Assembly (NCBI RefSeq): GCF_014695585.1
Contig: NZ_JACJON010000009.1
Coordinates: forward strand, 1-64,000
Direction of reading: 5' to 3'
Source: Microcoleus sp. FACHB-831
Lineage (GTDB): Bacteria > Cyanobacteriota > Cyanobacteriia > Cyanobacteriales > FACHB-T130
DNA length: 64,000 nt
Notes under the pieces: model-generated
The model's database searches: none
Seen by the model: the letters and a program-made list of their open reading frames with translations, nothing else
Told to the model about the DNA's origin: nothing
Program-made: the position numbers and the translations under genes
Part shown: positions 4,572 through 63,505 of the stretch, in pieces
How positions within the stretch are numbered: the first letter of the stretch is position 1
Layout of the letters: each line of letters starts with the position of its first letter

Positions 4572-5716
4572 AAAATTCTGCTTCTAGGCATTGCCGATTA
4601 GTGGCAATAATTGCCTGGAGCATAGCGATCGCTACTCTTATTCCCCGCAACAATGCCCTAGGCGGACAACCTCCGTCTGCTTTAAACTTGCAATTCCCCA
4701 AAGATTCAAACCTCGCATCTCCACAGAGGAACCAATCTTTAAGCCCCAGATTAAAGTCAAGTCAAAATCATTTGCCATCCTTAGATGACGACTTGCAAAA
4801 TGTTGAACTCGTCCGCACGCTTAAGGGTCATAACGGAGCAATTGATTCCCTAGTCTTTAGTCCTGATGGGAAAATGTTGATCAGCGGTGGCAGTTACAAT
4901 GATGGCAAAATTAAACTTTGGTGGCTCAAAACTGGTAGAGAAATTGATAGCCTCCGGGCGCATAGAACTGCTGTTATTGCCCTAGCTTTAAGCCCAGATG
5001 GGCAAACTTTAGCTAGCTGTAGCGATGATGCCGCAATCAACTTATGGAAGTGGGAAAGTGGCAAGTACACCCGTACTTTTCTAGCTAATGCTAATAATAC
5101 TCTTTCTTTAGCCATTACCCCAGATAGCCAAAATTTAGTGACGGGGGGTTTGGACGGTATTAGAGTATGGGATTTGAGAACGCAGCGACCGCTTTATACT
5201 CTAGTGCGTTTCGATAATCAAACTTATGGCCTTGCCGTTAATGCTAACGGCTACATTTTGGCTAGCGGTAACAAAAGCGGTGTAGTTAAACTTTGGAATT
5301 TACGAACTGGTAAATCAATAGGCAGTTTTGTGGGTCATAGTGGTATTGTTAGCACCGTTGCTTTTACTCCCGATGGTAGAAATTTGGTGACAGGCAGCTA
5401 CGATCGCACGATTAGAGTTTGGAATTTAAATAGCGGAAAACTTTCTTATACGCTTTCTGGACATACAGGTGAAGTAAGGGCGATCGCTATAAATCCAGAT
5501 GGACAAACTCTAGCCAGTGCAAGCCGCGATGGCGTCCGGCTTTGGAACTTGAGGACTGGGCAGCTAATTGCCAAACTTTCTGCACATTCGGACTGGGTGG
5601 AATCGGTTGCATTTAGTCCCGATGGAAGTACCCTCGCAAGCGGCAGCCTTGACAAGACGATTAATATTTGGCGAATTGACTCTTATAAACCACGAGATTA
5701 TCAAGCGCACTTGTAA
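4568..5716 (+). CDS. Exported seven-bladed WD40-repeat protein
   Basis: A protein of 382 residues. An N-terminal hydrophobic segment (about 10-25) ends near NNALGGQ, like a signal peptide, so the protein is probably exported. After a linker of about 55 residues come seven WD40 repeats, each with a GH/AH start, an SPDG turn (FSPDG, LSPDG, FTPDG) and a WD/WN/WR end. Together they should close one beta-propeller. No catalytic domain is fused to it, so it is presumably a binding scaffold; the partner is unknown. It overlaps the MerR gene by four bases. Confidence 0.9.
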   Translation: MKNSASRHCRLVAIIAWSIAIATLIPRNNALGGQPPSALNLQFPKDSNLASPQRNQSLSPRLKSSQNHLPSLDDDLQNVELVRTLKGHNGAIDSLVFSPDGKMLISGGSYNDGKIKLWWLKTGREIDSLRAHRTAVIALALSPDGQTLASCSDDAAINLWKWESGKYTRTFLANANNTLSLAITPDSQNLVTGGLDGIRVWDLRTQRPLYTLVRFDNQTYGLAVNANGYILASGNKSGVVKLWNLRTGKSIGSFVGHSGIVSTVAFTPDGRNLVTGSYDRTIRVWNLNSGKLSYTLSGHTGEVRAIAINPDGQTLASASRDGVRLWNLRTGQLIAKLSAHSDWVESVAFSPDGSTLASGSLDKTINIWRIDSYKPRDYQAHL

Positions 5717-5890
5717 TAAATTCCAAGCATTACTAAAATCGCGGTTTGTAGAGCATAATTTGGGGTAAACAGGGCAATATATTCTAACTTTTTAATAATT
5801 ACTTTATAAGTCAGAGCTTATTTAATACCATTTGGGTTTAATCTGGCTACATTGGAATTCCTAAAATTCCCTCGTGGTAAAGCGTTTCAA

Positions 5891-5913
5891 ATCCAAAATC
5901 CAAAATCCAAAAT
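5891..5913. repeat. Short tandem heptamer repeat (AAAATCC)
   Basis: About three copies of the heptamer AAAATCC lie upstream of the fucosidase gene. The same heptamer recurs near 20470, 30355 and 37486-37583. It is a typical short tandem repeat of filamentous cyanobacteria. Nothing else is evident in the 266-base gap 5717-5982. Confidence 0.6.
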
Positions 5914-5982
5914 GGTATAAGCGATCGCTATCATGTAGGCTGGTTTTTATCCCCTTCCTGCGCTAACTGGCTGATAAAGCTT

Positions 5983-7242
5983 ATGAAAACATGGTTTGAC
6001 ACCGCCCGTTTTGGGATGTTTGTACATTGGGGACATAGTTCTCAACGTGGCTGCGAATTATCATGGCCTCTAGTAGGTGGTGTTTTTAGCCTTCCCTTCT
6101 GTAGCAATATCCCCGTTGACGAATATCACAGTACAGGAAAAACATTTAATCCGCAAAAATACAATCCTCAAGAGTGGGCGCGTCTAGCTAAGCGCTTGGG
6201 AATTCAATATGCCATTTTGACGACTAAGCACCACGATGGCTTTGCGATGTTCCACACCCAGCAGTCAGACTTTTCTATTCAAAATTCCCCCTACGGCAAA
6301 GATATTGTCAGGGAATTTATTGATGCGATGCGCGAAAATGGTATTCGCATTGGCTTGTATTTTTCATTGATTGACTGGCATCACCCCGATTATCCCGCCT
6401 TCACTGAAGCTGACAAGCCTTACGTTTTTGGTCAACATCGTCAGCCAACGCCCGAACAGTGGCAGCGATTCGTTCAATTTATGTTTGCACAAGTGCGGGA
6501 GTTACTGACGAATTACGGCAAAATTGATATTATCTGGTTTGATGGGGGCTGGGAGCGATCGCCAGAACAATGGCAGACAGCAGCACTCAATGAAATGATT
6601 CGCTCTTTGCAGCCAGATATTCTAATTAATGACAGATTGCCTGGTTTTGGTGACTTCGATACGCCAGAGCAATTTATCCCACCCCAACCGCCCGATCGTG
6701 CATGGGAAACGTGCATGACAATTAACGAAAGTTGGGGATATAACCCGGCTGATACTAACTTTAAATCAGCGCGTCAGTTAATTCATACTTTGTGCGAAGT
6801 AGCGGGGAAAGGCGGCAATCTGTTACTAAATGCCAGCCCGATGGGAGATGGCCAAATTCAGCCAGAATTACTAGAACGTCTGGCAGTAGTGGAAACCTGG
6901 CTGTCTGCTAATCAAGAAAGTATCATTGGCACCAGTCCGGGATTGGAGCCTTGGCAATTTTACGGGACTTCCACGCGAAGGGGAAATAGAGTTTATCTCC
7001 ATTTATTGATGAAGCCTTATGAAACCATTTCTGTTCGCGGCGTACCAATTAAAAGAATCAAATCTGTGCAAGTTTTGGCTAACAGAATGGAACTAAACTA
7101 TAGTACTCGCTGTGGGATTATGGACTCGTTTACTAATTCAGATCCTCTGGGTGAGTTAACGATACAAGTCCCAGAATCAGCGATCGACCCTTACGCAACG
7201 GCGATCGCTATTGATTTCACTCCAGCGGATGCAGCTTTATAA
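5983..7242 (+). CDS. Alpha-L-fucosidase, glycoside hydrolase family 29
   Basis: A protein of 419 residues. The GH29 barrel begins at once with WFDTARFGMFVHWG and continues with TTKHHDGFAMF and GLYFSLIDWHHPD. The family nucleophile is the Asp in IIWFDGGW, near residue 187. GH29 enzymes remove terminal alpha-L-fucose with retention of configuration. No signal peptide is visible, so the enzyme looks cytoplasmic or the true start is altered. The conserved core begins within ten residues of the ATG, so a longer N terminus would need a non-ATG start. No sugar transporter or other glycosidase lies nearby. Confidence 0.88.
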   Translation: MKTWFDTARFGMFVHWGHSSQRGCELSWPLVGGVFSLPFCSNIPVDEYHSTGKTFNPQKYNPQEWARLAKRLGIQYAILTTKHHDGFAMFHTQQSDFSIQNSPYGKDIVREFIDAMRENGIRIGLYFSLIDWHHPDYPAFTEADKPYVFGQHRQPTPEQWQRFVQFMFAQVRELLTNYGKIDIIWFDGGWERSPEQWQTAALNEMIRSLQPDILINDRLPGFGDFDTPEQFIPPQPPDRAWETCMTINESWGYNPADTNFKSARQLIHTLCEVAGKGGNLLLNASPMGDGQIQPELLERLAVVETWLSANQESIIGTSPGLEPWQFYGTSTRRGNRVYLHLLMKPYETISVRGVPIKRIKSVQVLANRMELNYSTRCGIMDSFTNSDPLGELTIQVPESAIDPYATAIAIDFTPADAAL

Positions 7243-7671
7243 GGTCGCATTTGTTTTTCTCATTGAAGCCTACTCACTAACTAAAGCCGAAACAATATAG
7301 CGATTCTCAATTCGGTGCAATATGATTTATGGGTAGAAAATTTTTTGCCTCTATCGATAATTCTATAAATGAAAGTTATAACCGCTATAGTTTAGGTGTC
7401 GGCGCGACAACGGACGTAAAATTTTTAGTTTCTTAAAATTTAGTTTACAGATCAACTGTCAAGCTAAGTGGATTCACTTAGTAAATCCTATAGTCTTGTA
7501 CCCAACCTATACACATCTGTTGCCTGAAAACTTTAAATTTTCCTATGTTTTGTATAAAGGGTTATTAAAGATTATTAACTCTGAGCGTAAAACTAAATAC
7601 TTGTGGCTTAAAAGGGAAATATAAAGAGAAGCCTTCTACCCAAAGAGATAAAAATTGAGGGAGGAAAAAAG
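7243..7671. other. Intergenic region, 429 bases
   Basis: An AT-rich leader of the giant kinase gene. The only clear signal is a strong ribosome-binding site, GGGAGG, about ten bases before the ATG at 7672. No ORF, tRNA or repeat is evident. Confidence 0.5.
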
Positions 7672-10600
7672 ATGGTTGCTGATACCGTCGCAGTAGATAG
7701 CGTTACAGGTTACGGGTGGGTGGAGGAAGGTTTTTCAAATTTCTCCCTAGATCTTCTTTGTAGCCTCGGCTTAGATGGCTATTTCAAGCACCTGAACCCA
7801 GCCTGGGAAAAAACCCTGGGCTTTAGTTTAGAAGAGCTATTAGCAAAACCGTTAATTGAGTGGGTACACCCCGAAGATCGGGAAGCAACAATCGACCTCG
7901 CCGAGAAGCTGACGGTAGGTATAACCACAATCTCCTTTGAAAATCGCTACTTGTGCAAAGACGGCTCGTATAAGTGGCTGCTGTGGACAGCAGCACAATT
8001 GACCGAAAGAGGTGCGATTCATGGATTGGCTCGTGACATTACAGAGCGAAAGCAAGCACAAGCAGCGCTTTTAGAGAGCGAAGAAAGATTTCGGATCGTG
8101 GCAGATACAGCCCCCGTAATGATTTGGGCGGCTGGTACCGATAAGCAGTGTTCGTATTTGAATAAAGTCTGGCTGGAATTTACCGGACGAACGCTGGAAG
8201 AAGAGATGGGTAACGGTTGGACTCAAGGTGTTCATCCCGAGGATTTGCGGCTTTGTTTAAATACTTACATTACTGCGTTTGATGCCCGTGAAGCGTTTCG
8301 CATGGAGTATCGTCTCCGACGCGCTGACGGAGAGTATCGCTGGATTTTGGATTCAGGAACTCCTCGGTTAATGCCGGATCGCAGCTTTGCTGGTTACATC
8401 GGCTCGTGTATTGACATTACCGAACGCAAACAGGTGGAACAGGCGCTGCAAGAGAGCGAAAAGCGATATCAAGCTTTAACAGAAGTATCTCCGGTGGGAA
8501 TATTTCACACTGATGCGTTGGGGTGCTGTTTGTATGTAAACGAGCAATGGTGCGCGATCGCCGGATCTTCTCTTCAAGATGCATTAGGAGAAGGTTGGTT
8601 ACAAGCTATACATCCCGAAGATCGCGATCGCGTCTTTGCACAATGGAACCAAGCTGTCCGAGAAAACTTAGCATTTCACTCAGAGTATCGCTTCTTGCAT
8701 CTTAACGGTACAACCTGGGTATTTGGTCAGGCAGTAGCCCAGAAAGCGAACGATGGAAAAGTTACGGGTTACGTTGGCACAATTACCGACATTAGCTCGC
8801 GCAAGCAAGCAGAAGAAGCGCTGCAAGAGAGCAAAACGCTGGTACAAGCTATCGTGGATAATTCTCCAGCAGTCATCTTCGTCAAAGACTCTCAAGGGCG
8901 ATACATTCTGGCTAACAAGCGATACACAACCCTGTTCGAGGTAAATTCAGAAGAAATCAAGGGCAAGACAGACTACGATATCTTCCCCCATGAGATGGCT
9001 GACACATTTCAAATAAACGATCGCAAGGTACTAGAGGCCGGAACTGCTCTAGAGTCGGAAGAAATTGTACCTCAAGACGACGGCTTACACACTTACATTT
9101 CGATCAAGTTTCCTCTCTACGATTCTGCCGGAGTTCCCTACGCAGTTTGCGGTATAGCAACTGACATAACCGAACGCAAGCGGACGGAAAAAGAGCAGTT
9201 GGAATTAGGCGATCGCATCAAATTACTGCTGGAATCAACAGGCGAAGGTATCTACGGAATTGATTTAGAAGGATGCTGCACTTTAATTAACAAAGCAGCA
9301 GCTCAGATGCTGGGATATCAGCCAGAAGAACTCATAGGCAAAAATATGCACGAGTTAATCCATCACACTCGCATTGATGGCTCGTCTTATCACTTTTGTG
9401 ACTGTCCTATCTTTTGTGCTTTTGACAAGGGAAGAAGTTGCCGCGTGGACAGCGAAGTTTTATGGCGGCGGGACGGAACTTGTTTCCCTGCCGAATATTC
9501 GTCTTATCCGATCCGCAACGGTGAGGCGCTCGAAGGTGCGGTTGTCACCTTTATGAATATCAGCGATCGCAAGCGGACTATGGAGGAACTCCGCAAGCTG
9601 CATCGCGCTGTTGAACAAAGCCCCAGCATGGTTTTGATTACCGATCGCAACGGTTTTGTTGAATATGCCAATCCCAGGTTAATCCAGATGACTGGTTTAA
9701 CTTATGAAGAAGTAATTGGGACTAATGCCGCCATATTGGGCGAACAATCGCCAGAAGAAGTACAAGAGTTATGGAATACAATTAGCGCTGGTGGCGAGTG
9801 GCGAGGAGAATTTTATAACAAGAAAAAGAACGGGGAATATTATTGGGAAATGGCGTCTGTTTACCCAGTTTTCAACGAGCAACAGGAAATCACGCATTTT
9901 GTCAAAGTTGCTGAGGATATCACCGAACGCAAGTTGGCAGAACAAGTATTAAAACAGGCGAATGAAACCTTAGAAGTCCGAGTTGAAGAGCGCACCGCTG
10001 AGTTAAGAAATGCGATCCAAAGACTAGAAGACGAAATGGCCAATCGCCAGCAGGCAGAGGAAGAGCTTAAACAAGCTAAAGAAGAGCTGGAAAAAAGTTA
10101 TAGCCTCTTGCAATGCGTTATAGAAGGGACGCCCGATCCCATTTTTGTGAAGGATATTCAGGGTCGCTATGTATTGCTAAACTCGGCGACTGCCCTTGTA
10201 TTTGGAAAACCTGTAGAGGAAATAATTGGTAAGAAGGACTGCGAGTTGGTTCCGCCGGAAGTAGTATCTCAAGTTAGGGAAACTGACAACACAATCTTGA
10301 GAACCGGAGTTTCTCAGACCTTAGAAGAACTTGTCCAAGCCACAGATAGTATGCGGACATATCTTTCAACAAAAAGCGTTTACCGCGACAAAGAAGGAAA
10401 GGTCATGGGTCTGATTGGCATTGCGCGGGACATAAGCGATCGCAAACAAGCAGAAGCAGCTTTACAAAAAGAACGAGAATTTTTAAAGGCACTGCTCAAT
10501 ACTTTGGAAGTTGGTATTGTGGCGTGTGATGAAAATGGGGGATTAACTCTATTTAATCAGTCCACGCGAGAGTTTCATGGCTTACCAGAAGAATCGCTAC

Positions 10601-13600
10601 CTCCCAGCGAGTGGGCGCAACACTTTGATTTGTATTTGCCCGACAAGAAAACATTAATGTCAATGGCAGATATCCCATTGTTTCGGGCGTTTCAGGGAGA
10701 AGCGATTCGGAACGTAGAAATGGTAATTGCCCCTAAGCATGGAAAAACGCGCACCCTACTTGCAAGCGGACAGCCAATCTTCGATGCTCAGGGGAAAAAA
10801 CTGGGTGCTGTAACGGCGATGCATGATATCACCGAGCGCAAGCACGCCGAAGTGGCTTTGCGCCGAAGCGAAGTACGGCTCAACAGCATCCTAAATTCCT
10901 TACAAGATTTGGTCTGGTCTATTTCAGCAACCACTTTTGAGGTGCTGTTCATGAACCAAATTGTTGATAAGCTTTATGGTCGCCCCTCCTCGGAATTCTT
11001 CGACAACTCCGACCTCTGGCTGGAAGTCATTCATCCAGAAGACCGCGATCGCGCCATTGAATACAACCACAGGGTTATGGAAGAGGGTAGCGGTGAAATA
11101 GAGTACCGCATTATCCGAACGGATGGCCAAGTGCGCTGGGTTTACAGCCGTGCATGGCTGATTTATGACGAGAACGGTACTGCTATCCGCATGGATGGTC
11201 TGACTTCAGACATCACACAGCGCAAACAAGCCGAGAAAATTCAGGCAAGGTTGACCGGAATTTTAGAAGCAACACCCGATCTTGTAGGCACTGCTGACTC
11301 CCAAGGCAACGTACTCTACATTAACCGCGCAGGTCGAAAAATGTTAGGGATTGGTGAAGATGAAGATATCTCAACCAAACATATCGCTGAGTTTTGTGCC
11401 CCTAGTGCAGCCGAAGTTATGCTGGCATACGGCATACCTGCTGCGATCAAAGACGGAGTGTGGAGTGGCGAGACTGCTTTGCAATACCGCAATGGCACCG
11501 AGATTCCAGTCTCGCAAGTCATAATGTCTCACAAAGACGAAAACGGAGTTGTGGAATTTCTCTCAACCATAGCCCGCGACATCACACCTGCTAAACAAGC
11601 CGAAGCAGCATTACGACAAAGCGAAGCGAGGCTGGCAGAAGCTCAAAAAGTCGCCCACATCGGTAGTTGGGAATTCGATCTCGCCACTGGAGAAATTACT
11701 TGGTCAGAGGAACTGTTCCGCGTTTGGGGGATGGAACCAACCCAAGCCGTACCGACATATGAAGAATTACTGCAAAAAATTCATCCCGAAGACCGAGAAG
11801 TTTTTGCCCAAGCAATAAATTTGGCAATTACAGAAGGCAAACCTTATGAATTTGACCACCGGAGCCTAAGACCTGACGGTTCGATCGCATATATGTTCTC
11901 CAAAGGGCAGCCGATATTGAACTCACAGGGCCAGGTCATTAAGCTATTGGGGGTAGGGCTAGACATCAGCGATCGCAAACAGGCAGAAGAAGCCGTGCGG
12001 CAAAGCGAAGAACTCTACCGCGCCCTCGCCCGCAATTTGCCCAATGGTTCGGTTGCTTTATTCGATGCTGACTTACGTTACATACTGGCGGATGGCATCG
12101 AATTAGCCGAATTCGGGCTTTCAAAGGAATTAATGGAAGGGAAGACCCTTTGGGAAGCTTTTCCCCCTGAAACCTGTGAAAATGTCGAGCCGATGTATCG
12201 CGCTGCACTGGCTGGCAATACGACGGTTTCTGAAATTCCTTATGACAATGGCGTTTATTTATTGCAAACGCTTCCCCTTACTAATAAGCAAGGTGAAATC
12301 TTTGCAGGAATGGTATTAGCGCAAAATATTAGCGATCGCAAACAGGCAGAGGAGGCGTTGCGGCAGCGGGAAGAACAATTGCGCCAGATTCTTGAGAATA
12401 TGCCAGTTATGATGACTGCATTCGAGGCAGACGGAAACATCACTGTCTGGAACCGCGAGTGTGAAAGGGTTACAGGCTACAGTGAGTTTGAGATGGTTGG
12501 CAATCCCAAAGCAATGGAATTGGTGTATCCAGATCCTGCCTATCGCACATCAATGCTGGCCGTATGGGCTGAACTTGGCAATAATTACCGTAATTGGGAA
12601 TGGGAGATTACAGCTAAAGATGGAAGTATCAAAACAATTGCATGGTCGAATATATCCGAGGAATTCCCCATTCCCAGATGGGCTACTTGGGGCATTGGCG
12701 TAGACGTAACTGAGCGCAAGCAAGCAGAAGAAGCTTTAGCCCAGAAAGCCCGCCTAGCCGCATTTCGCGCGGATGTAGATACTGCTCTTACTCAGAGCGA
12801 TCGCTTGCAAGGCATTCTCCAACGCTGCACCGAGGCTGTCGTCCAACATATCGATGCCGCCTTTGCTCGCATCTGGACGCTCAACAGCAAGGAAAACGTA
12901 CTAGAGTTGCAAGCTAGTGCGGGAATGTACACCCATCTTGATGGCTCTCACAGCCGCGTGCCTGTAGGTCAATTTAAGATTGGCCTGATTGCCCAACAGG
13001 GCGAACCCCACCTGAGCAACTGTGTCATCGACGATCCTCGTGTTGGCGATAAAGATTGGGCAAAAAGAGAGGGTTTGATCTCCTTCGCTGGTTATCCCCT
13101 GATTATTGAAGGACAGATTTTAGGGGTGATTGCCATGTTTGCGCGTAAACCGCTTACGGAAGCTACTCTCAGGGCGCTAGAATTTGCAGCGGATGAGATT
13201 GCGCTGGGCGTTAAGCGCAAACAAGCGGAGGAGGCGTTGCGGCAGTCGGAAGCACGATTTAGGCAACTCGCCCAACGAGAGGCACTGCTGAACCGTTTGT
13301 CCAGGGATATCCGCAACTCGCTAGATGTTGATACTATCCTGGAAACTGTTGTGCAAGAGATCCGCAGTTTGTTGCAGATTGACCGATGCTTGTTTGTTTG
13401 GTATCGGCAATCGCCACAGAAACTTATCTGGGATGTAGTGAAAGAAGCCAAGATTCCCAGTGCGCCCAGCTTTCTAGGCCAATACCCCGCCCCAGCAAGT
13501 TTGGTAACTCAGAAGTTCACCAATCTGGAAATCTTAAAAGTTGAAGATCTTGCGACTGCTACTGATGCTGCCGAACAGGAATTCTATACCGTTAAGGGTT

Positions 13601-14658
13601 ACACAGCTATTCTGGCGCTGCCTATTAAAACGTCTTCTGGTGAGATTGGTATACTCAAGTGCGGGCATCATAGTGGTTCTAGGTCTTGGATTGACTCGGA
13701 AGTGGAATTACTGCAAGCGGTAATTGACCAACTGGCGATCGCGCTTTTCCAAGCTGAACTCTACACGCAGTCCCAAGAAGCGGCACGTCTTGCTCAAGAC
13801 CAAGCACAACAGCGCCAGCTTGCTTTGCAACAGTTGCAACAAACCCAAGCGCAGCTAATTCAAAGCGAAAAAATGTCGAGTCTTGGTCAAATGGTCGCTG
13901 GTGTTGCTCACGAAATTAACAACCCTGTTAACTTCATTCATGGCAATCTTACCCACGTAAACGAATACACCCTAGACTTACTCAATCTCCTCCACCTTTA
14001 CCAACAGAACTATCCCAACCCAGTCCCTGAAATTAAACATGAAACTGAAGCTATCGATCTCGATTTTCTAGTGATAGACCTCCCCAAAATTTTGACTTCG
14101 ATGAAGATGGGGACAGACCGCATCCGTCAGATTGTTCTGTCGCTACGCAACTTCTCCCGCCTGGATGAAGCGGATATGAAAGCGGTAGACATCCACGAGG
14201 GAATTGATAATAGTCTGCTGATATTGCAAAATCGGCTAAAAGCAAACGGGAGCAATTCTGCCATTGAAGTGGTGAAATACTATGGCAACTTGCCCCAAGT
14301 GGATTGCTATGCAGGGCAGATCAATCAGGTTTTTATGAATATCCTCAACAATGCCATTGATGCGTTGGAGAACCAACCAGCGCCGAGAGCGATCGCTATT
14401 CATACTGAACTTAAAGATCAAGACCGCGTTTTAATTCGGATTGGGGACAATGGGCCAGGAATGACGGAGGCGGTGCGATCGCGCCTGTTTGACCCGTTCT
14501 TCACTACCAAGCCTGTCGGTAAGGGCACTGGTTTGGGTTTATCCATCAGCTATCAAATTGTCGTTGAGAAACATGGTGGTGTTTTGAAATGTTCGTCACA
14601 ACCTGGTAATGGTGCTGAGTTCTGGATTGAAATCCCAATTTTCCAACCCGAAACCTAA
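7672..14658 (+). CDS. Giant soluble hybrid sensor histidine kinase: 13 PAS, 2 GAF, HisKA, HATPase_c
   Basis: A protein of 2328 residues. I count 13 PAS units between about residues 20 and 1695, most ending in a PAC-type motif such as DITERKQAE or DISDRKQAE. A coiled-coil linker follows PAS 6. Two GAF domains start near 1696 and 1877. The phosphoacceptor histidine is in GVAHEINNPVNF, near residue 2075; the ATP-binding lobe has DNGPGM near 2258 and GTGLGLS near 2284. No transmembrane segment is seen, so the protein should be cytoplasmic. There is no receiver domain and no response regulator nearby. The start has an excellent Shine-Dalgarno (GGGAGG). The last 280 residues closely match the kinase cores encoded at 56949 and 60611. 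Confidence 0.95.
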   Translation: MVADTVAVDSVTGYGWVEEGFSNFSLDLLCSLGLDGYFKHLNPAWEKTLGFSLEELLAKPLIEWVHPEDREATIDLAEKLTVGITTISFENRYLCKDGSYKWLLWTAAQLTERGAIHGLARDITERKQAQAALLESEERFRIVADTAPVMIWAAGTDKQCSYLNKVWLEFTGRTLEEEMGNGWTQGVHPEDLRLCLNTYITAFDAREAFRMEYRLRRADGEYRWILDSGTPRLMPDRSFAGYIGSCIDITERKQVEQALQESEKRYQALTEVSPVGIFHTDALGCCLYVNEQWCAIAGSSLQDALGEGWLQAIHPEDRDRVFAQWNQAVRENLAFHSEYRFLHLNGTTWVFGQAVAQKANDGKVTGYVGTITDISSRKQAEEALQESKTLVQAIVDNSPAVIFVKDSQGRYILANKRYTTLFEVNSEEIKGKTDYDIFPHEMADTFQINDRKVLEAGTALESEEIVPQDDGLHTYISIKFPLYDSAGVPYAVCGIATDITERKRTEKEQLELGDRIKLLLESTGEGIYGIDLEGCCTLINKAAAQMLGYQPEELIGKNMHELIHHTRIDGSSYHFCDCPIFCAFDKGRSCRVDSEVLWRRDGTCFPAEYSSYPIRNGEALEGAVVTFMNISDRKRTMEELRKLHRAVEQSPSMVLITDRNGFVEYANPRLIQMTGLTYEEVIGTNAAILGEQSPEEVQELWNTISAGGEWRGEFYNKKKNGEYYWEMASVYPVFNEQQEITHFVKVAEDITERKLAEQVLKQANETLEVRVEERTAELRNAIQRLEDEMANRQQAEEELKQAKEELEKSYSLLQCVIEGTPDPIFVKDIQGRYVLLNSATALVFGKPVEEIIGKKDCELVPPEVVSQVRETDNTILRTGVSQTLEELVQATDSMRTYLSTKSVYRDKEGKVMGLIGIARDISDRKQAEAALQKEREFLKALLNTLEVGIVACDENGGLTLFNQSTREFHGLPEESLPPSEWAQHFDLYLPDKKTLMSMADIPLFRAFQGEAIRNVEMVIAPKHGKTRTLLASGQPIFDAQGKKLGAVTAMHDITERKHAEVALRRSEVRLNSILNSLQDLVWSISATTFEVLFMNQIVDKLYGRPSSEFFDNSDLWLEVIHPEDRDRAIEYNHRVMEEGSGEIEYRIIRTDGQVRWVYSRAWLIYDENGTAIRMDGLTSDITQRKQAEKIQARLTGILEATPDLVGTADSQGNVLYINRAGRKMLGIGEDEDISTKHIAEFCAPSAAEVMLAYGIPAAIKDGVWSGETALQYRNGTEIPVSQVIMSHKDENGVVEFLSTIARDITPAKQAEAALRQSEARLAEAQKVAHIGSWEFDLATGEITWSEELFRVWGMEPTQAVPTYEELLQKIHPEDREVFAQAINLAITEGKPYEFDHRSLRPDGSIAYMFSKGQPILNSQGQVIKLLGVGLDISDRKQAEEAVRQSEELYRALARNLPNGSVALFDADLRYILADGIELAEFGLSKELMEGKTLWEAFPPETCENVEPMYRAALAGNTTVSEIPYDNGVYLLQTLPLTNKQGEIFAGMVLAQNISDRKQAEEALRQREEQLRQILENMPVMMTAFEADGNITVWNRECERVTGYSEFEMVGNPKAMELVYPDPAYRTSMLAVWAELGNNYRNWEWEITAKDGSIKTIAWSNISEEFPIPRWATWGIGVDVTERKQAEEALAQKARLAAFRADVDTALTQSDRLQGILQRCTEAVVQHIDAAFARIWTLNSKENVLELQASAGMYTHLDGSHSRVPVGQFKIGLIAQQGEPHLSNCVIDDPRVGDKDWAKREGLISFAGYPLIIEGQILGVIAMFARKPLTEATLRALEFAADEIALGVKRKQAEEALRQSEARFRQLAQREALLNRLSRDIRNSLDVDTILETVVQEIRSLLQIDRCLFVWYRQSPQKLIWDVVKEAKIPSAPSFLGQYPAPASLVTQKFTNLEILKVEDLATATDAAEQEFYTVKGYTAILALPIKTSSGEIGILKCGHHSGSRSWIDSEVELLQAVIDQLAIALFQAELYTQSQEAARLAQDQAQQRQLALQQLQQTQAQLIQSEKMSSLGQMVAGVAHEINNPVNFIHGNLTHVNEYTLDLLNLLHLYQQNYPNPVPEIKHETEAIDLDFLVIDLPKILTSMKMGTDRIRQIVLSLRNFSRLDEADMKAVDIHEGIDNSLLILQNRLKANGSNSAIEVVKYYGNLPQVDCYAGQINQVFMNILNNAIDALENQPAPRAIAIHTELKDQDRVLIRIGDNGPGMTEAVRSRLFDPFFTTKPVGKGTGLGLSISYQIVVEKHGGVLKCSSQPGNGAEFWIEIPIFQPET

Positions 14659-14865
14659 TCTAAACTGAGCATAAAAAAAGAGAGGGAATTTTTCATCCCC
14701 TCTCTCTTTATTTTTGTTATTTTCGGTTGTGCCCTGGTCTTTTAGCTTCTTCCGCAGCATTTGTTGTTGCTTTCTGAGCTGTCTAGCCCTTGCGGAACCG
14801 CCTCGACCCTTATCGTTTCTACCCTGGCGCCGGGGTGATTCCCAGCTTTTGAGTCGTTGAGCCAT
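14596..14865 (-). CDS. Small very basic protein, unknown function
   Basis: The frame encodes 89 residues. The first 45 or so are rich in Arg, Lys and Gln (starting MAQRLKSWESPRRQGR) and look like a real nucleic-acid-binding-type small protein. The remainder reads through the terminator at 14672-14712 and into the antisense of the kinase gene, so only the N-terminal half is likely to be meaningful. It lies just downstream of tRNA-Leu on the same strand. I do not recognise the family. Confidence 0.45.
   Translation of the reverse strand: MAQRLKSWESPRRQGRNDKGRGGSARARQLRKQQQMLRKKLKDQGTTENNKNKERGDEKFPLFFYAQFRLGFGLENWDFNPELSTITRL
14672..14712. terminator. Bidirectional rho-independent terminator
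   Basis: A GAGAGGG / CCCTCTC stem with A-runs on one side and T-runs on the other lies just after the giant kinase stop. It can serve that gene and the convergent genes on the minus strand. Confidence 0.75.
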
Positions 14866-54143: not shown

Positions 54144-54340
54144 ACAATACCTCTTTTGTACAATTGGCTTTTAAAGGTTATACAGCTTATCAGAACTTTT
54201 AGGATTTACGGCAGGGTTAAGGCAGCCTAATTCATACTTCATACTTCCTGGTTCATCCGGATGGTGGGACGCGGCTAAAATTTTGGGATTATTGCGAGTA
54301 TCGTTCCGGATTTTTGCTATTTTCGCAGTAATTAAGAATT

Positions 54341-54392
54341 GGTAGATGCACCCTGGTTTAGCTCTAGACTCAAGTTCTAGGGCTTTTTTTTT
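54341..54392 (+). ncRNA. nsiR1: NsiR1-like small RNA, copy 1
   Basis: Predicted RNA of about 50 bases. Upstream are TCCGGA (54305-54310) and TAATTA (54329-54334), 18 bases apart. The transcript would begin near GGTAGATGCACCC and end in a GCTCTAGA / TCTAGGGC hairpin with a run of nine T. NsiR1 in Nostoc is a heterocyst-linked RNA of similar size encoded in tandem with TCCGGA-type promoters. The identity is inferred from this arrangement. Confidence 0.72.
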
Positions 54393-54538
54393 GCGTATTA
54401 ATGATGTACATCCTCCGCCTTACTACCTCCCTCTGCTTTCAGCGTTGGCGGGTGCAAAGTGGGGATTTGCCAAAAAGAATGTTTATTTCTTGGCAGTATC
54501 GTTCCGGATTTCCCTCATTCTCCTAGTAATTAAGAATT

Positions 54539-54588
54539 GGTAGATGCACCCTGGTTCAGCTCTAGAGGCCAACCTCTAGGGCTTTTTA
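54539..54588 (+). ncRNA. nsiR1: NsiR1-like small RNA, copy 2
   Basis: TCCGGA at 54503-54508 and TAATTA at 54527-54532, 18 bases apart. The body GGTAGATGCACCCTGGTT is identical to copy 1 except after the GTT. The stem CTCTAGAG / CTCTAGGG has a longer loop-side pairing (AGG/CCT). Confidence 0.72.
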
Positions 54589-54703
54589 TTTTGGGAAATT
54601 TGAAAGATATTTTGCCCCTTAAGTAATGAACATTAGGCTTGTTGAATTTTTTTATTGGCAGTATCGTTCCGGATTTACCCCATTTTATTAGTAAGTAATA
54701 ATT

Positions 54704-54755
54704 GGTAGATGCACCCTGGTTAAGCTCTAGAGTTTGGACTCTAGGGCTTTTTATT
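54704..54755 (+). ncRNA. nsiR1: NsiR1-like small RNA, copy 3
   Basis: TCCGGA at 54668-54673, TAAGTA at 54692-54697. The core GGTAGATGCACCCTGGTT is conserved; the stem is GCTCTAGAG / CTCTAGGGC. The -10-like box is the most divergent of the four. Confidence 0.7.
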
Positions 54756-54871
54756 TTGGTAATTTAATTATGGTTATTGTCTTAATTAATGACTCCTTGA
54801 CTTGTTCAACACTTTTTATTTCTTGGCAGTATTGTTCCGGATTTTACCCATATTCCTAGTAATTAAGAATT

Positions 54872-54922
54872 GGTAGATGCACCCTGGTTTAACTCTAGAG
54901 TTTGGCTCTAGAGTTTTTTTTT
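54872..54922 (+). ncRNA. nsiR1: NsiR1-like small RNA, copy 4
   Basis: TCCGGA at 54836-54841, TAATTA at 54860-54865. The outer stem pair is A-T instead of G-C (ACTCTAGAG / CTCTAGAGT), a change on both sides that preserves folding. A run of nine T follows and is 46 bases short of the convergent lgt stop. Confidence 0.72.
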
Positions 54923-56568: not shown

Positions 56569-56948
56569 CTGGTATTATCTATAAATTTAAAAATTGATAA
56601 TTTTATAAAAACAAGTTATGAAGTTTTGACTAAGTTAGTAGGAGAATTGTTTAAAAAATTAAAAGCACAAAAAAATCTAACCTGAGAGCGTTAATTATTT
56701 TACAAAAATATTAAACTAGCTTAATTAAACCTATTTCTTACATTGCAGACAAAATTGGCGTACCTACTATAACGAAATTTTTCCTCCTGAAAAATACCGA
56801 GCGAGATTTTCATCTAGGCATTAATATCAGTAAATTTACTGATATTAATGCTCTTGTCATTAATTAGAAATTAATAATTTAGTCCGTATTAACTGTATAA
56901 GAAGACGATAGTGTAATTACTAATGCACATTTAAATAGCAAATAAAGA
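56569..56948. promoter_or_regulatory. AT-rich leader of the permease-kinase locus
   Basis: 380 bases between the interrupted ORF and the first permease-kinase, divergently placed. It contains the 34-bp palindrome at 56818-56851. No ORF. Confidence 0.55.
56818..56851. promoter_or_regulatory. Perfect 34-bp palindrome upstream of the permease-kinase genes
   Basis: GCATTAATATCAGTAAA is followed at once by its exact reverse complement, with no loop. It ends 97 bases before the ATG at 56949. No T-run follows. It could be a dimer-binding operator or a cruciform; it is unlike the other repeat families of the window. Confidence 0.7.
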
Positions 56949-59900
56949 ATGATTGCTGAAAAATTTTTAACAGCAAATAATCATCGCATTTCCTCAACGC
57001 GCCTTCCTCGGAGCCTCAGCGCCATTGAAACTTGGGGCTTTGGTCTCACGCCTCATCTCACATGGATTAGTACGGCACCTGCGCTCCACGCGGCTATTGG
57101 AACGCAAGCCCTCTTCGTGTGGGTGCCAATAGCGATCGTCAGCTTACTGCTGAACCTACAGGTGAAACGCTTAGGAGAACACTGGCCCGAAGTAGCAGGA
57201 GGAACGCCGAATTACACAACTAGGCTACTGAAAAATTATCCAGGGTTGGGACGTTACGGAGCAATCGGTTACTACTTGGGATGGGTCTCCATTCCACCCG
57301 TAACCGCTATCGTCCTCACAGATCTTATTAAGTACAACTTAGAGCCTTTAGGTATTGCCTATCCGGAATGGGGTCTAAGAATTGGCTTCACGCTGATCGC
57401 TTATATTGTGGCGTTTAGCGGTATCCGCGCCTTGAGTATCCTGCACTTATTCTTCGTTATTCCGGCATTCGGATTTCTACTATTGTTTTGCACTCAAGGC
57501 ATGGGGTGGTTAGCCTTCTCGCCAAATAGCCCCGGTTTTTTTCCCACCAGTTGGTCAAACCTAAACTTTGAAGACTGGGCAAAGTGGTACTTTATGGCAG
57601 CTTATGGAGGCTATGGCTGTGAAACCGCGGCGGTGTTTGTCGCCGATAGCCAACGTCCCAAAGAAACGTTGCGCTTCCTCAAGTTAGCAGGTTGGCTGAT
57701 TCTGCCAGTACAGTTGGGTGGCTCGTGGGTTCTAATGCGTTTAGCCAGCTCTCCAGGACTTGGCGACAACTCTTTTGTTAACCTCACCGCAGCAGCAACA
57801 CCCTTTTGGGGGCAGTCCGGTTCATTATTGGTGACGTTACTGCTCGTTTCAAGCACATTGCTAAGTTGTGCTACTACGGTTGCTGTCTCTCCCCGTATTT
57901 TGTATCAAATGGCTCAGGACGGACATCTTTCGTCGGTGTTCGCAGTTAGTTCCCGTCGGGGGGTTTTAGAACCGGGCCTCCTATTTACACTTTTACTCAG
58001 TATTATTTATCTGATTTGGGGAGATATTGCCCGTATCGTGGTGATATCTGGCACTAGCTGGCTTGCATCCATTATGGTTGTACATCTGGGGCTATGGCTG
58101 CGCCGGGGCAGCCCGGAGGTGCGCTGGCCTTGGTTGTCGCTGTGCTTTTTGTTGTTAGAGTCAGTTGTGCTGGTGTTTGGAGGCTTGGGTTGGGGTTGGC
58201 AAGATCTGCTAATCGGGCTTCTTTTTCCCATCGGCATTTTAGCGGTGGATGCTGCTATGCGCCGGATATCATTTCCCCCGTTCCATGCAGCGTGGTGGAA
58301 CCAGCGTTATCGTCAGCGGTCTTCAGTTGAGATTAAAGATTTTGTTGTGCTTCAAATAGTCATCCTGATCGTATTGGTCTGTAGCGGTACCGCTATAGGC
58401 TGGATGATTAGGGACAAGTTTGAGCATATCGATAGCAATGCCAACAACAATATATTGGTTGTTTTGCTGATGACCTTGGCATTTGTAGCGATCGCGATCG
58501 CCTGTTGGACTACTTTGCCCCAAGTTGCCTCGATCGCCGAAGCAAGAGAACAAGCAGAAAACTTGTTTATTACTGCTCTCGACACCGTTCCAGATACCAT
58601 TCTCGTCTTAGATGAAAACGGCGCGATCGCCCAAGCTAACCCAGCGGCTGAACTACTTTTTGGCATGAACGCCAAAGATCTATTTGGGCATCGCCTTAAT
58701 AACTTATTTCCAGGGTTGGCTTCCGATCCTGGTCAGTGGCCCCACACCAGCGAACAGAAATTAACTATTTATTCTGTAGGGGCAATTGATGCATCGCCTT
58801 TACTACGCATTATTGAAACGACTATTTCCGAGCGTTCAAATCGGAATCTGCAACAATATATAGTTATTTTGCGCGACATCACAGAACGCAAGCAGGCTGA
58901 AGCTCAACTCCAGCAAACTTTGCAGCTAAAGGAAGAACTTGCTGTTACTGCCACAGAGCAAGCCGAAAGATTAGAGAAAACGCTCTATGAATTGCAACAA
59001 GCGCAGTCTCAATTAATTCAATCTTTGGAATCGGATAGGATTCTCAAGCACGTTACAGACCAAATCCGCAGTACTTTAGATTCCAAGACGATTCTGCAAA
59101 CTATCGTCCGAGAAGTGCGACGTTTGCTCAACACAGACCGCGTGGTGATTTACCACTTTAATGGCGGCTGGCAAGGCAAAGTGGTCGTAGAAGAGGTGAC
59201 AGGTAATTGGAACTCGCTTTTGGGTGAGATGTATGCTGATGAATGCTTTCCCAGCGAACATGCTCTGCTTTATGAAGCCGGACGAGTTAAAAGTGTTAAC
59301 AACGTAGTTGAATCAGATTTACATCCGTGCCACAAAGAGTTTTTGCAGAATATTCAGGTGCAAGCCAACCTTGTTTTACCAATTCGGATAGATTCTCATT
59401 TATGGGGTTTGCTTATTGCCCACGAGTGTGGTGCTACTAGAGTTTGGCAGACAGCTGAAATTGAGTTGTTGCAAAAGTTAGCCGATCGAGCTGCGATCGC
59501 CATTCATCAAGCTGAACTCTATCAACACAGCTGCACCGCCGCCCACACAGCGCAGACTCAAGCCCAACATCTAGAAAACGCTTTACAGCAGCTCAAACAC
59601 ACCCAAGCTCAACTTATTCAGACCGAGAAAATGTCTAGTTTGGGTCAATTAGTCGCTGGTGTTGCCCATGAAATAAATAACCCGGTTAATTTTATTTATG
59701 GCAATCTAACTCACGTTGATGACTACGCTAACGATTTACTCGATTTAGCTAAACTTTACCAACAGCGCTTTCCATCGGCAGATTTAGAAATACAAAAATT
59801 TGTTGAAGAAATTGATCTAGATTTTCTGATTGAAGATCTGCCTAAAACATTAGCCTCAATGAGAATTGGCGCTAAACGCATCCGTGAAATTGTGCTAACT

Positions 59901-60443
59901 TTGCGTAACTTCTCTCGGCTTGACGAAAGTGAAATGAAATTTGTTAATATTCACGAGGGAATAGATAGCACGCTGTTGATTTTGCACAATCGTATTAAAG
60001 ATAAACCGGAGCGTCCGGGAATAGAAATTATTAAAAACTATGGCAAATTGCCACAAGTTGAATGTTATGCCGGACAGCTAAATCAGGTGTTTATGAACAT
60101 TGTGAGCAATGCGATTGATGCTTTAGACAATCACGACAGCGATCGCTCACTAGAAGAAATTAAAAAACATCCCAGTAGCATTACCATCGCCACCCAAGCT
60201 TTAGAGAAAAATCGCGTACTTATCAGTATTAAAGATAACGGGCCAGGAATGGCAGATAACGTCAAATCACGGCTATTTGACCCGTTCTTTACAACTAAAC
60301 CTGTAGGTCAGGGCACAGGTTTAGGATTATCAATCAGCTATGAGATTATTGTCAATAAACACGGCGGTGAGATCAAGTGTTTATCACAGTCAGGGCAGGG
60401 TGCAGAATTGTTGATTGAAATACCCGTCCGGAAAATCAGCTAG
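56949..60443 (+). CDS. Permease-coupled sensor histidine kinase 1: APC-type transporter, PAS, GAF, HisKA, HATPase_c
   Basis: A protein of 1164 residues. The first 520 or so form a polytopic membrane domain of about 12 helices that resembles an APC-superfamily amino acid permease (opening LSAIETWGFGLTPH, with AGGTPNYTTRLL). After a last helix (IAIACWTTLPQVASIAEAREQ) come a PAS domain (about 535-655), a coiled coil, a GAF domain (about 693-855) and the kinase. The phosphoacceptor His is in GVAHEINNPVNF near 903; DNGPGM near 1096 and GTGLGLS near 1121 bind ATP. The design parallels CbrA-like transporter-kinases. Whether it still transports is unknown. Confidence 0.92.
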   Translation: MIAEKFLTANNHRISSTRLPRSLSAIETWGFGLTPHLTWISTAPALHAAIGTQALFVWVPIAIVSLLLNLQVKRLGEHWPEVAGGTPNYTTRLLKNYPGLGRYGAIGYYLGWVSIPPVTAIVLTDLIKYNLEPLGIAYPEWGLRIGFTLIAYIVAFSGIRALSILHLFFVIPAFGFLLLFCTQGMGWLAFSPNSPGFFPTSWSNLNFEDWAKWYFMAAYGGYGCETAAVFVADSQRPKETLRFLKLAGWLILPVQLGGSWVLMRLASSPGLGDNSFVNLTAAATPFWGQSGSLLVTLLLVSSTLLSCATTVAVSPRILYQMAQDGHLSSVFAVSSRRGVLEPGLLFTLLLSIIYLIWGDIARIVVISGTSWLASIMVVHLGLWLRRGSPEVRWPWLSLCFLLLESVVLVFGGLGWGWQDLLIGLLFPIGILAVDAAMRRISFPPFHAAWWNQRYRQRSSVEIKDFVVLQIVILIVLVCSGTAIGWMIRDKFEHIDSNANNNILVVLLMTLAFVAIAIACWTTLPQVASIAEAREQAENLFITALDTVPDTILVLDENGAIAQANPAAELLFGMNAKDLFGHRLNNLFPGLASDPGQWPHTSEQKLTIYSVGAIDASPLLRIIETTISERSNRNLQQYIVILRDITERKQAEAQLQQTLQLKEELAVTATEQAERLEKTLYELQQAQSQLIQSLESDRILKHVTDQIRSTLDSKTILQTIVREVRRLLNTDRVVIYHFNGGWQGKVVVEEVTGNWNSLLGEMYADECFPSEHALLYEAGRVKSVNNVVESDLHPCHKEFLQNIQVQANLVLPIRIDSHLWGLLIAHECGATRVWQTAEIELLQKLADRAAIAIHQAELYQHSCTAAHTAQTQAQHLENALQQLKHTQAQLIQTEKMSSLGQLVAGVAHEINNPVNFIYGNLTHVDDYANDLLDLAKLYQQRFPSADLEIQKFVEEIDLDFLIEDLPKTLASMRIGAKRIREIVLTLRNFSRLDESEMKFVNIHEGIDSTLLILHNRIKDKPERPGIEIIKNYGKLPQVECYAGQLNQVFMNIVSNAIDALDNHDSDRSLEEIKKHPSSITIATQALEKNRVLISIKDNGPGMADNVKSRLFDPFFTTKPVGQGTGLGLSISYEIIVNKHGGEIKCLSQSGQGAELLIEIPVRKIS

Positions 60444-60610
60444 GTAACAACTTTGGGTAGGCAACGTTGTAGGTATTTCCAATGGCGATCGCTCCTACCC
60501 AACGTTACTGCTTAAAACATTCGTTCTCAGGGAAAATACTCAAAAATTTACTCGGGTTTTTAGCAAGTTTAAGAACTTACACGGTTTTCCCAATCCTAAA
60601 AATTGGCTAA

Positions 60611-63505
60611 ATGGTGATTAGTATTACAATATCCGATTTAAAAATAATGCTCGATCAGCCTGTCGTCGGCGTGGACAAGAATCAGCACTCAACCATGCGC
60701 CTCCCCCGCAGCTTGAGTGCTTTTGAAACTTGGGGCTTCGGTCTCACTGCTCACACCGGATGGATCGCCGTTGCACCGGCCATCCACGCTGCGCTTGGAG
60801 TAAATGCTATCTTCGTCTGGTTGCCTGGGACAATTGTGGGGATGCTGCTCAACTTTCAGGTGCAACGCTTAGGCATGCGTTGGCCGGAAATGTCAGGGGG
60901 AACGCCCAACTACGCTGCGAGGCTGCTAAAGCACTATCCAGGGCTGGCTCGCTATGTGGCACTCGGATATTTCGTTGGATGGGCATCGGCTCCAGCGGTA
61001 ATTGCAACTGTTCTCAGCGACTTGATTAAAGCCAACCTAGAACCTTTAGGTATTGCTTGTCCTACATTAGCACTCAACATTGGATTCACCTGTATAGCTT
61101 TTGTGGTGGCATTTAGCGGCACCCGCGCTTTAGCTATACTCCATTTATTTTTTCTCATCCCAGCAGTGGGATTCTTACTCACTTTTTGCTTTCAGGGCTT
61201 GTGGTGGTTAACTTTTTCACATCACAGCCCTGGGTTTTTCCCCCCTGTAGAGACGAGCCATACAACATCTCTACATTTTGGAGACTGGGCAAAATGGTAC
61301 TTCATAGGGACTTGGAATCTATACGGCTGTGAAACCACTTCCTCGTTTGTAGCCGATAGCCGACGCCCTAATGAAACTTTGCGGTTTATGACCTTTGCTA
61401 CTTGGCTAATGCCGCCAGTGTATCTGGGTTTTTCTTGGCTGCTGACGCGGTTGGCTACAGAGCCAGGACTTAGTAATAGCACGTATATTACCTTGCTAGC
61501 AGCATCAAAGCCCTTCTGGGGTCAGGCTGGTTCGATGTTAGTGACATTGCTAATTGCCTTCTCCAGCTTTCTTAATTGCGCCACTGCTGTTTGCGTCCTT
61601 CCCCGCATCTTGTACCAGCTCTCTTTGGACGGACACTTGTCGCCAGTTTTTGCTGTTGTTTCCAAGCGAGGCGTCTTGGGGCCTGCCCTATTATTTACCT
61701 TTTTAATTAGTCTCGCGTGTCTGGTTTGGGGAGATGTTGCCCGTATAGTAATGGTGACGAATACTGGCTACCTAGCCTCCATAATCGGAATCCACCTGGG
61801 ATTGTGGCTGCGCCGAGGTTTGGCAGAGGTGCGATGGCCTTGGTTATCGTTGGGCTTTTGTATTGTGGGGGCAGTTGTCTTCGTCGTAGGAGGGTTAGCT
61901 TGGAGTTGGCAAGATTGGCTGATCGGACTTTTGTTGCCGATTGTCATTTTGGCTATTGATGCTGCTATCCGCCGCATACCGTTTGCGCCATTCCATCCGC
62001 GCTGGTGGCAAAAGCATTACAATCCCCAGAATAACGGTAAGTTCAAAGATTTTGTGGCGGTTCAGGTAATCGTACTGATCGTATTGGTCTGTAGCGCTAC
62101 TAGCATCGGTTGGACGATTGGCGCAAATTTAGGCAGAATCACTGGCGTGCCTAGTGCGGATTTATTAGTGGTTCTGCTAGTAACAATTGCATTTTGTGCT
62201 GTAGCGATCGCTTGTTGGACTACTTTACCCCAAGTTGCCTCTATCGCTGAAGCGCGAGAACACGCTGAAACTCTTTTTATGACTGCTCTAGACACCGTTC
62301 CAGATACAATTCTGGTGCTAGATCAAAGCGGCGCAATTCGACAAGCTAATCCGGCTGCTGTTGAACTCTTCGAGATGAAGCCAGTTGAGCTAATTGGGCG
62401 TCGTCTTAACGAATTTCTTTGTGAGTTGCCCGTCTCACCCGCTGAATGGGAACTTAGGAGCGAACAGACCTTGGCTCAGCGCAAAAAGGGCTTACGCACT
62501 ATTGAAGCAACGATCTCGCAAAGATCCAATCAAAAGTTGCAAGAATATATTGTGATTTTGCGCGATATCACCTCGCGCAAGCAGTCAGAGGAAGCATTGC
62601 AACAATCTGAGAGCCAGTTGAGAGAACAAGCACTAACGCTGGAAGGAACTCTGCAAGATCTCCAACGAACTCAAACCCAATTAATTCAGACTGAGAAAAT
62701 GTCCAGCCTCGGTCAACTCGTCGCTGGTGTGGCTCACGAAATTAATAACCCAGTTAATTTTATTTATGGCAACATCACCCATGTGGGTGAGTACACCAAC
62801 GATCTACTCGGTTTAGTCAATTTGTACCAGCAACGCTGTCCGCAAACCGATGTGGAAATTGAAGAGTTTATTGAAGATATAGATCTGGACTTTCTGATCC
62901 AGGATCTACCCAAAACTCTGTCTTCAATGAAAGTTGGCGCCGAACGCATCCGCGAGATCGTACTAACTTTGCGTAACTTCTCCAGACTGGATGAATCCGA
63001 CATGAAACCCGTCAATATTCATGAAGGAATCGATAGCAGCCTGTTGATTTTGCACAATCGTCTTAAGGCTAAACCCGACCGTCCGGGAATTGAGATAGTC
63101 AAGGAATATGGCAACTTACCCAAAGTTGAATGTTATGCCGGACAGCTCAATCAAGTATTTATTAATATTATCAGCAATGCGATTGATGCTTTGGAAAAAC
63201 ACGACAAGGAGCGCTCTCTAGAAGCTATTAAAGAGCGCCCCAGCATGATTACTATTCGTACCTTTAGGAGCGATCGCGATCGCGTAATAATCAGCATTCA
63301 AGATAATGGGCCAGGAATGACAGATAGTGTCAAATCAAGAGTATTTGACCCTTTCTTCACTACAAAACCTGTAGGTCAGGGTACAGGTCTGGGATTATCA
63401 ATTAGCTATCAGATTGTCGTAGATAAGCACAGCGGACAGCTAAAGTGTATATCCACATCAGGGCAAGGGACAGAATTCTTGATTGAAATCCCCATCCGAC
63501 AGTAG
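60611..63505 (+). CDS. Permease-coupled sensor histidine kinase 2 (tandem paralogue, no GAF)
   Basis: A protein of 964 residues, closely similar over its whole length to the upstream gene. The permease domain opens LSAFETWGFGLTAH and has about 12 helices; PAS lies near 550-670 and the kinase His in GVAHEINNPVNF near 706, with DNGPGM near 898. It lacks the GAF domain. A dispersed palindrome (61246-61275) is read through in frame in an extramembrane loop. The gap to gene 1 is 167 bases on the same strand. No response regulator follows. Confidence 0.92.
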   Translation: MVISITISDLKIMLDQPVVGVDKNQHSTMRLPRSLSAFETWGFGLTAHTGWIAVAPAIHAALGVNAIFVWLPGTIVGMLLNFQVQRLGMRWPEMSGGTPNYAARLLKHYPGLARYVALGYFVGWASAPAVIATVLSDLIKANLEPLGIACPTLALNIGFTCIAFVVAFSGTRALAILHLFFLIPAVGFLLTFCFQGLWWLTFSHHSPGFFPPVETSHTTSLHFGDWAKWYFIGTWNLYGCETTSSFVADSRRPNETLRFMTFATWLMPPVYLGFSWLLTRLATEPGLSNSTYITLLAASKPFWGQAGSMLVTLLIAFSSFLNCATAVCVLPRILYQLSLDGHLSPVFAVVSKRGVLGPALLFTFLISLACLVWGDVARIVMVTNTGYLASIIGIHLGLWLRRGLAEVRWPWLSLGFCIVGAVVFVVGGLAWSWQDWLIGLLLPIVILAIDAAIRRIPFAPFHPRWWQKHYNPQNNGKFKDFVAVQVIVLIVLVCSATSIGWTIGANLGRITGVPSADLLVVLLVTIAFCAVAIACWTTLPQVASIAEAREHAETLFMTALDTVPDTILVLDQSGAIRQANPAAVELFEMKPVELIGRRLNEFLCELPVSPAEWELRSEQTLAQRKKGLRTIEATISQRSNQKLQEYIVILRDITSRKQSEEALQQSESQLREQALTLEGTLQDLQRTQTQLIQTEKMSSLGQLVAGVAHEINNPVNFIYGNITHVGEYTNDLLGLVNLYQQRCPQTDVEIEEFIEDIDLDFLIQDLPKTLSSMKVGAERIREIVLTLRNFSRLDESDMKPVNIHEGIDSSLLILHNRLKAKPDRPGIEIVKEYGNLPKVECYAGQLNQVFINIISNAIDALEKHDKERSLEAIKERPSMITIRTFRSDRDRVIISIQDNGPGMTDSVKSRVFDPFFTTKPVGQGTGLGLSISYQIVVDKHSGQLKCISTSGQGTEFLIEIPIRQ
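61246..61275. repeat. Dispersed palindrome inside permease-kinase 2
   Basis: TGTAGAGA ... TCTCTACA, related to the GTAGAGACG intergenic repeats. It encodes part of PPVETSHTTSLHF, where the paralogue has a segment four residues shorter. Confidence 0.6.

Follow-up and report, generated by a model that had tools for sequence, protein, structure and literature searches.

A putative sensory module related to APC permeases, fused to histidine kinases and other signalling outputs in cyanobacteria

A tandem pair of fusion genes in Microcoleus sp. FACHB-831

The window, meaning the whole 64,000 nt stretch analysed, is the first part of contig NZ_JACJON010000009.1 in the 6.4 Mb genome of the cyanobacterium Microcoleus sp. 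FACHB-831. It contains two adjacent genes, P1 and P2, each encoding a membrane module, or 'head', followed by a histidine kinase. Both ORFs are intact, and confirm the tandem pair at exactly the coordinates given by an initial annotation made from the sequence alone.

56949..60443, + strand: P1, 1164 aa; putative APC-type sensor module, PAS, GAF and histidine kinase
60444..60610: intergenic gap of 167 bp between P1 and P2, which lie on the same strand
60611..63505, + strand: P2, 964 aa; putative APC-type sensor module, PAS and histidine kinase

These are the sole copies of the module detected in the genome. Upstream of the pair, cobM and lgt are retained, with four consecutive matches to NsiR1 (nitrogen stress-induced RNA 1) between them at 54340-54922 of the window; the downstream gene is glyA-like. 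A 16-pair inverted repeat, GGCATTAATATCAG...CTGATATTAATGCT, is found approximately 100 bp 5' of P1 (window 56817-56852) and may represent either an operator or a terminator-like structure. The number of sites returned by a promoter scan was not above that in shuffled sequences. No response regulator gene is encoded adjoining P1 and P2, which counts against reading the membrane module as a sensor.

The cytosolic parts of the two proteins comprise the following domains:

58578..58895, + strand: P1 PAS, aa 544-649 (Pfam)
59085..59504, + strand: P1 GAF, aa 713-852 (Pfam, 74.8 bits)
59640..60431, + strand: P1 HisKA and HATPase, aa 898-1161; H-box AHEINNP, His907
62288..62581, + strand: P2 PAS, aa 560-657 (Pfam)
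62708..63499, + strand: P2 HisKA and HATPase, aa 700-963; H-box AHEINNP, His709

The HATPase domains have Pfam scores of 78.1 bits in P1 and 79 bits in P2. The HisKA matches are weaker, that of P1 (23.5 bits) being slightly below the cut-off and that of P2 reaching 22.9 bits; the AHEINNP H-box is nonetheless present in both, and together with the GTGLGL motif and the HATPase domain completes the set of sensor histidine kinase motifs retained by the two proteins. The order originally described, a PAS domain followed by a complete histidine kinase, is thus borne out in each, as is the additional GAF domain, which belongs to the first gene; P2 has no GAF match.

The membrane module has an APC-like fold

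Several lines of evidence indicate the ancestry of the membrane module. P1 matches the AA_permease family (PF00324) with 26.6 bits, above the cut-off of 24.6, while P2 falls below it, its domain alone scoring 20.5 bits. Of an alignment set of 47 heads (A1), which includes those of P1 and P2, 35 match PF00324 at E <=0.1, the best at 2.1e-13. When the family profile was compared with the PDB, a single transporter was matched, LysP (E 1.6e-5). An AlphaFold model of the module (pLDDT 88.7) aligns to APC structures with Z scores reaching 33 across some 430 residues, the best matches, at Z about 31-33, being SLC7A10 (33.1), KimA, y+LAT1, LAT1, ApcT (31.8) and AdiC (30.9); KimA, which is associated with K+, is joined by NKCC among the good structural matches. 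By contrast, no Pfam match to SSF (SLC5/SSS) was obtained for P1 and P2 at E 1, or for the 47 heads at E 0.1. On the basis of the PF00324 matches, the LysP match and the structure comparison, the membrane domain of P1 and P2 is predicted to adopt the LeuT-type fold of APC proteins, and the profile search thus placed the N-terminal region with a transporter family rather than with a non-transport membrane sensor family. The nearest curated transporter model is that of the TMAO permease (NF053774), matched weakly by 44 of the 47 heads; P2 scores 25 bits against it, where the cut-off is 690.

Of the initial description, about 12 APC-like hydrophobic helices, the APC likeness stands and the number does not: 14 transmembrane helices are predicted, consisting of the 12-helix APC core and a two-helix hairpin, TM13-14. 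The relevant features, named from the P2 model and from sequence conservation, are:

60701..61975, + strand: P2 APC-fold core, TM1-12, aa 31-455 (structure model, PDB matches)
62051..62143, + strand: P2 TM13, aa 481-511, the first of the two hairpin helices (model)
62156..62296, + strand: P2 TM14 and its extension to the PAS domain, aa 516-562, a single predicted helix holding the exit motif
62210-62233, + strand: P2 exit motif A534-C-W536-T537-T-L-P-Q541 (motif conservation over 90 proteins)
58500..58523, + strand: P1 exit motif A518-C-W520-T-T-L-P-Q525, after TM14 (sequence; motif conservation over 90 proteins)

In the full P2 model, helix 516-562 runs continuously out of the membrane to the PAS domain, though the pTM of this full-length model is just 0.61 and its inter-domain geometry is consequently unreliable.

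A module found only in fusions, with varied outputs

The module was sought in 386 genomes of the phylum, at least 39 of which gave matches, and in 149 of the order, with matches in at least 43; a few of the matches are fragments or standalone permeases. At least 90 distinct cyanobacterial proteins contain the module, with profile scores of 604-858 bits; standalone APC permeases come next, at 66-68 bits and below. A scan of genome contigs for a few exact peptides matched two genomes, both cyanobacterial; the head had no match among plasmid records.

The survey of fused architectures proposed at the outset shows the module to be linked to a signalling output in every case found: not one of the 90 module proteins in the sampled cyanobacterial genomes is free-standing. 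Seven output classes were distinguished with the help of small custom profiles, derived from members that Pfam had defined. Most are kinases, with H-boxes of the AHEINN (53), AHEIRN (12), SHELRT (14) or SHEFRT (2) types, or a HisKA_2 domain (1); the remainder are six GGDEF-EAL proteins, with both motifs intact, and two SpoIIE phosphatases. Thirteen of the 14 SHELRT proteins carry receiver domains, the other being ended by a contig edge. Between membrane and output there may be nothing, up to three PAS domains, or a PAS-GAF pair. In 12 kinases neither PAS nor GAF was detected and the H-box lies 47, 54 or 56 residues past the module, which implies that the membrane module can be the sole recognised input.

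On a quickly built head tree, made without bootstraps and with 24 of 87 inner branches weak, parsimony requires 14 changes between the seven output classes, against a minimum of six, which suggests that heads and outputs have recombined repeatedly. The outputs of the module are thus interchangeable between kinases, hybrid kinases, GGDEF-EAL proteins and SpoIIE phosphatases.

Some individual loci have further features. Both phosphatase fusions (L128, 4229-7048; L133, 4092-6911), in which the module is followed by PAS and SpoIIE-type domains, have a PAS histidine kinase gene downstream. In L132 (5044-7239) the ORF of a fused kinase ends past the H-box, and the kinase is resumed 28 bp downstream in another ORF on the same strand, probably as the result of a frameshift. 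All six GGDEF-EAL fusions (L038, L039, L041-L044) are convergent to a histidine decarboxylase gene, which scored above the cut-off in none of eight other genomes. This gene neighbourhood, in carriers that are close relatives, hints that the clade could possibly sense histidine or histamine.

Conservation of the core and of the membrane exit

The APC core is strongly conserved over its full length, including the motifs GGTPNY and PRILYQLALDG, and 96 module positions have an entropy below 0.5 bit across the 90 divergent proteins. At positions 131 and 329, where Asn is otherwise common in the family, P1 and P2 differ from the consensus.

Retention of the substrate-binding residues of APC helices 1 and 6, raised as a check of the initial annotation, holds for helix 6 and not for helix 1. 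TM6 is broken at residues 238-241 in the full P2 model, and Glu241, which aligns in the profile match with the Glu of the LysP GTE motif, is present in 86 of 90 module proteins, with Asp in the other four. In TM1, Glu39 and Phe43 are invariant (90/90) and Trp51 nearly so (88/90), while position 48 is mainly H or L and position 50 mainly L, G or S. The Gly-x-Gly motif of standalone cyanobacterial permeases, aligned by profile (probability 98.4), corresponds in the module to a gap, a variable residue and Trp51, and the canonical motif is therefore not kept. TM1 is broken at residue 50 in the full P2 model and unbroken in the first AlphaFold model; the loss of the motif, along with a break in only one of two models, counts against the sensor-module reading. 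The TMAO-permease-like transporters (NF053774), the best standalone relatives in the searched genomes, also lack the TM1 Gly-x-Gly when inspected by eye, from which it follows that this motif is not universal among APC proteins. They resemble the module in that the TM6 Glu is common to both, as is the TM1 Glu when judged by eye, but are free-standing proteins of about 490 aa without an output domain, scoring 66-68 bits against the module profile.

Where the polypeptide leaves the membrane, the motif A-C-W-T-[ST]-L-P-Q is near-invariant whatever the output, with few exceptions: A534 and T537 are found in 90 of the 90 module proteins, Q541 in 89 and W536 in 88. The junction between module and outputs is itself conserved.

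Heads diverge while kinases remain alike in tandem arrays

Module genes recur at one chromosomal site. In several relatives, one to three of them directly precede rlmN, and in some of these lgt lies on the opposite side, with one module gene in L118 and two to three in L120-L122. All 12 of the AHEIRN-type (HEIRN) kinase genes, distributed over 10 loci, have a CheY-like regulator gene directly downstream.

The clearest array, in L035 (genome G099, 5488-14751), consists of three fused kinases in tandem. Their kinase parts are 95-100% identical as proteins and 89-100% as DNA, their heads 58-72% and mostly 54-88%, respectively. Identity rises abruptly shortly past the PAS domain, in protein and DNA alike, a pattern indicative of gene conversion in the kinase half and apparently restricted to the output. 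A CheY-like regulator starts 17 bp past the last copy and is followed by two receiver-kinase genes.

P1 and P2 represent a milder form of this trend: as the initial annotation supposed, the tandem copies have diverged, their heads (62% identical) more so than their kinases (76%). When kinase identity is regressed on head identity across every pair, in a poor fit that mixes kinase classes, P1/P2 is no outlier (z 1.5). The two kinases are sisters (96); the heads are not sisters on the head tree, but an AU test does not reject their sisterhood (p 0.15). A recent whole-gene duplication as the origin of the pair would thus be neither supported by the head tree nor rejected by the test. Heads diverging while kinases stay alike means that, in such arrays, several signals could feed one pathway.

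Comparison with known transporter-derived sensors

CbrA, CrbS and RpuS likewise combine a membrane domain of transporter fold, LeuT-type in the wide sense, with PAS and histidine kinase domains. In these proteins, which are studied in Pseudomonas, Vibrio and Sinorhizobium, the transporter is of the SLC5 (SSS) family, whereas in P1 and P2 it is of the APC type (PMC13022988, PMC9100948). Coupling in CbrA-type proteins also involves a separate STAC helical bundle, in place of which P1 and P2 have the two-helix transmembrane hairpin and a continuous helix. No four-helix STAC bundle separates the transporter from the PAS domain in the P2 model; since a single predicted helix runs from TM14 to the PAS, and the H-box of PAS-less members lies 47-56 residues past the module, there is no room for one. 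P1 and P2 probably work like transceptor kinases and stand outside the SLC5-STAC family. A further parallel is KsAmt5, in which a transporter domain serves as a kinase sensor, binding without efficient transport; it is a precedent for the module in this respect, though its fold is that of the Amt ammonium transporter family and not APC (PMC5764959, PMC8534201).

Signalling of amino acids by APC permeases, a role that the module may share, is seen in LysP (with CadC), yeast Ssy1 and Gap1. LysP and Ssy1 are separate proteins that act on partners, with no kinase fusion. The same is true of Gap1 (PMC11109136). In the S-component fold, or 5TMR, kinases a transporter fold was likewise recruited for the membrane part of the sensor, again with varied outputs, but this fold is different and smaller; it has been presented as the first prokaryotic case of a transceptor, reported examples being extremely few and eukaryotic according to the same source, which omits STAC-bridged CbrA (PMC11109136). 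No paper describing an APC-kinase fusion was found in the literature searched, most subscription journals lying beyond its scope.

Discussion

P1 and P2 are probably receptors of a cyanobacterial family in which an input module derived from an APC-superfamily permease drives a kinase. The best reading is of a transporter-derived sensory input module with putative ligand binding, the heads of which diversify while the output is shared. A small solute would bind near the broken TM6/TM1 region and shift the APC core between conformations; this movement would be passed through the TM13-14 hairpin and the ACWT(S/T)LPQ exit motif to a coiled coil, and so alter the activity of a kinase dimer, both dimerisation and the direction of signalling being presumed. 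The same head is joined to kinases of simple and hybrid type, to c-di-GMP enzymes and to a SpoIIE phosphatase, and tandem arrays of diversified heads with a shared output might convey several signals into one pathway.

The sensed species might be an ion or another non-amino-acid solute, such as K+ or a methylated amine, with the APC fold reflecting ancestry only. The structural matches to KimA and NKCC, and the TMAO permease as nearest curated model, favour this, but that model is matched weakly and SLC7-type amino acid carriers rank equally high by structure, leaving the proposal doubtful; as it concerns the ligand, it is compatible with a permease-derived sensor. A true bifunctional transceptor, whose module would still carry its substrate across the membrane and drive the kinase through transport or occupancy, as reported for CbrA, is rather unlikely. 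It would account for conservation of the core over its whole length, and the SLC5 domain of CbrA does both transport histidine and signal (PMC7096432, PMC13022988); against this, the module was never found without a signalling output in the cyanobacterial genomes sampled, the TM1 Gly-x-Gly is lost, and the fused transporter domain of KsAmt5 keeps its fold yet translocates inefficiently (PMC8534201).

The presence of PAS in most members, and of GAF also in P1, counts against the permease module as the sensor, as these domains could be the real sensors and the permease part a degenerate anchor. We regard this as very improbable, given the 12 kinases without either domain and the many near-invariant positions, for which an anchor would have no need. 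Reverse control, with the soluble domains as regulators of permease transport, has a parallel in some APC carriers, where nucleotide-binding domains in the cytosol exert control (for example KimA with c-di-AMP, 8b70), but the domains attached to the module are outputs with catalytic activities of unrelated kinds (kinase, GGDEF-EAL, phosphatase), and many module genes have a response regulator downstream; there is scarcely any likelihood of its being correct.

In the cyanobacterial genomes sampled, the permease-like module occurs solely in fusions with signalling enzymes, for the most part histidine kinases, a pattern suggestive of nutrient sensors that form one family and originated from a transporter. 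It can be proposed, tentatively and with slightly less than an even chance of being right, that these are prokaryotic transceptors of cyanobacteria, with an obligate, portable APC sensor, heads diversifying by ligand, kinases homogenised by gene conversion and nutrients converging on one regulator. With at least 90 proteins, one conserved junction and many outputs, the family is a tractable system for the conversion of alternating-access motion into a signal. Arrays of the L035 type, with near-identical kinases and different heads, would allow ligands to be sought one head at a time against a shared readout, and the module family offers a route to learning which dissolved nutrients these cyanobacteria monitor.
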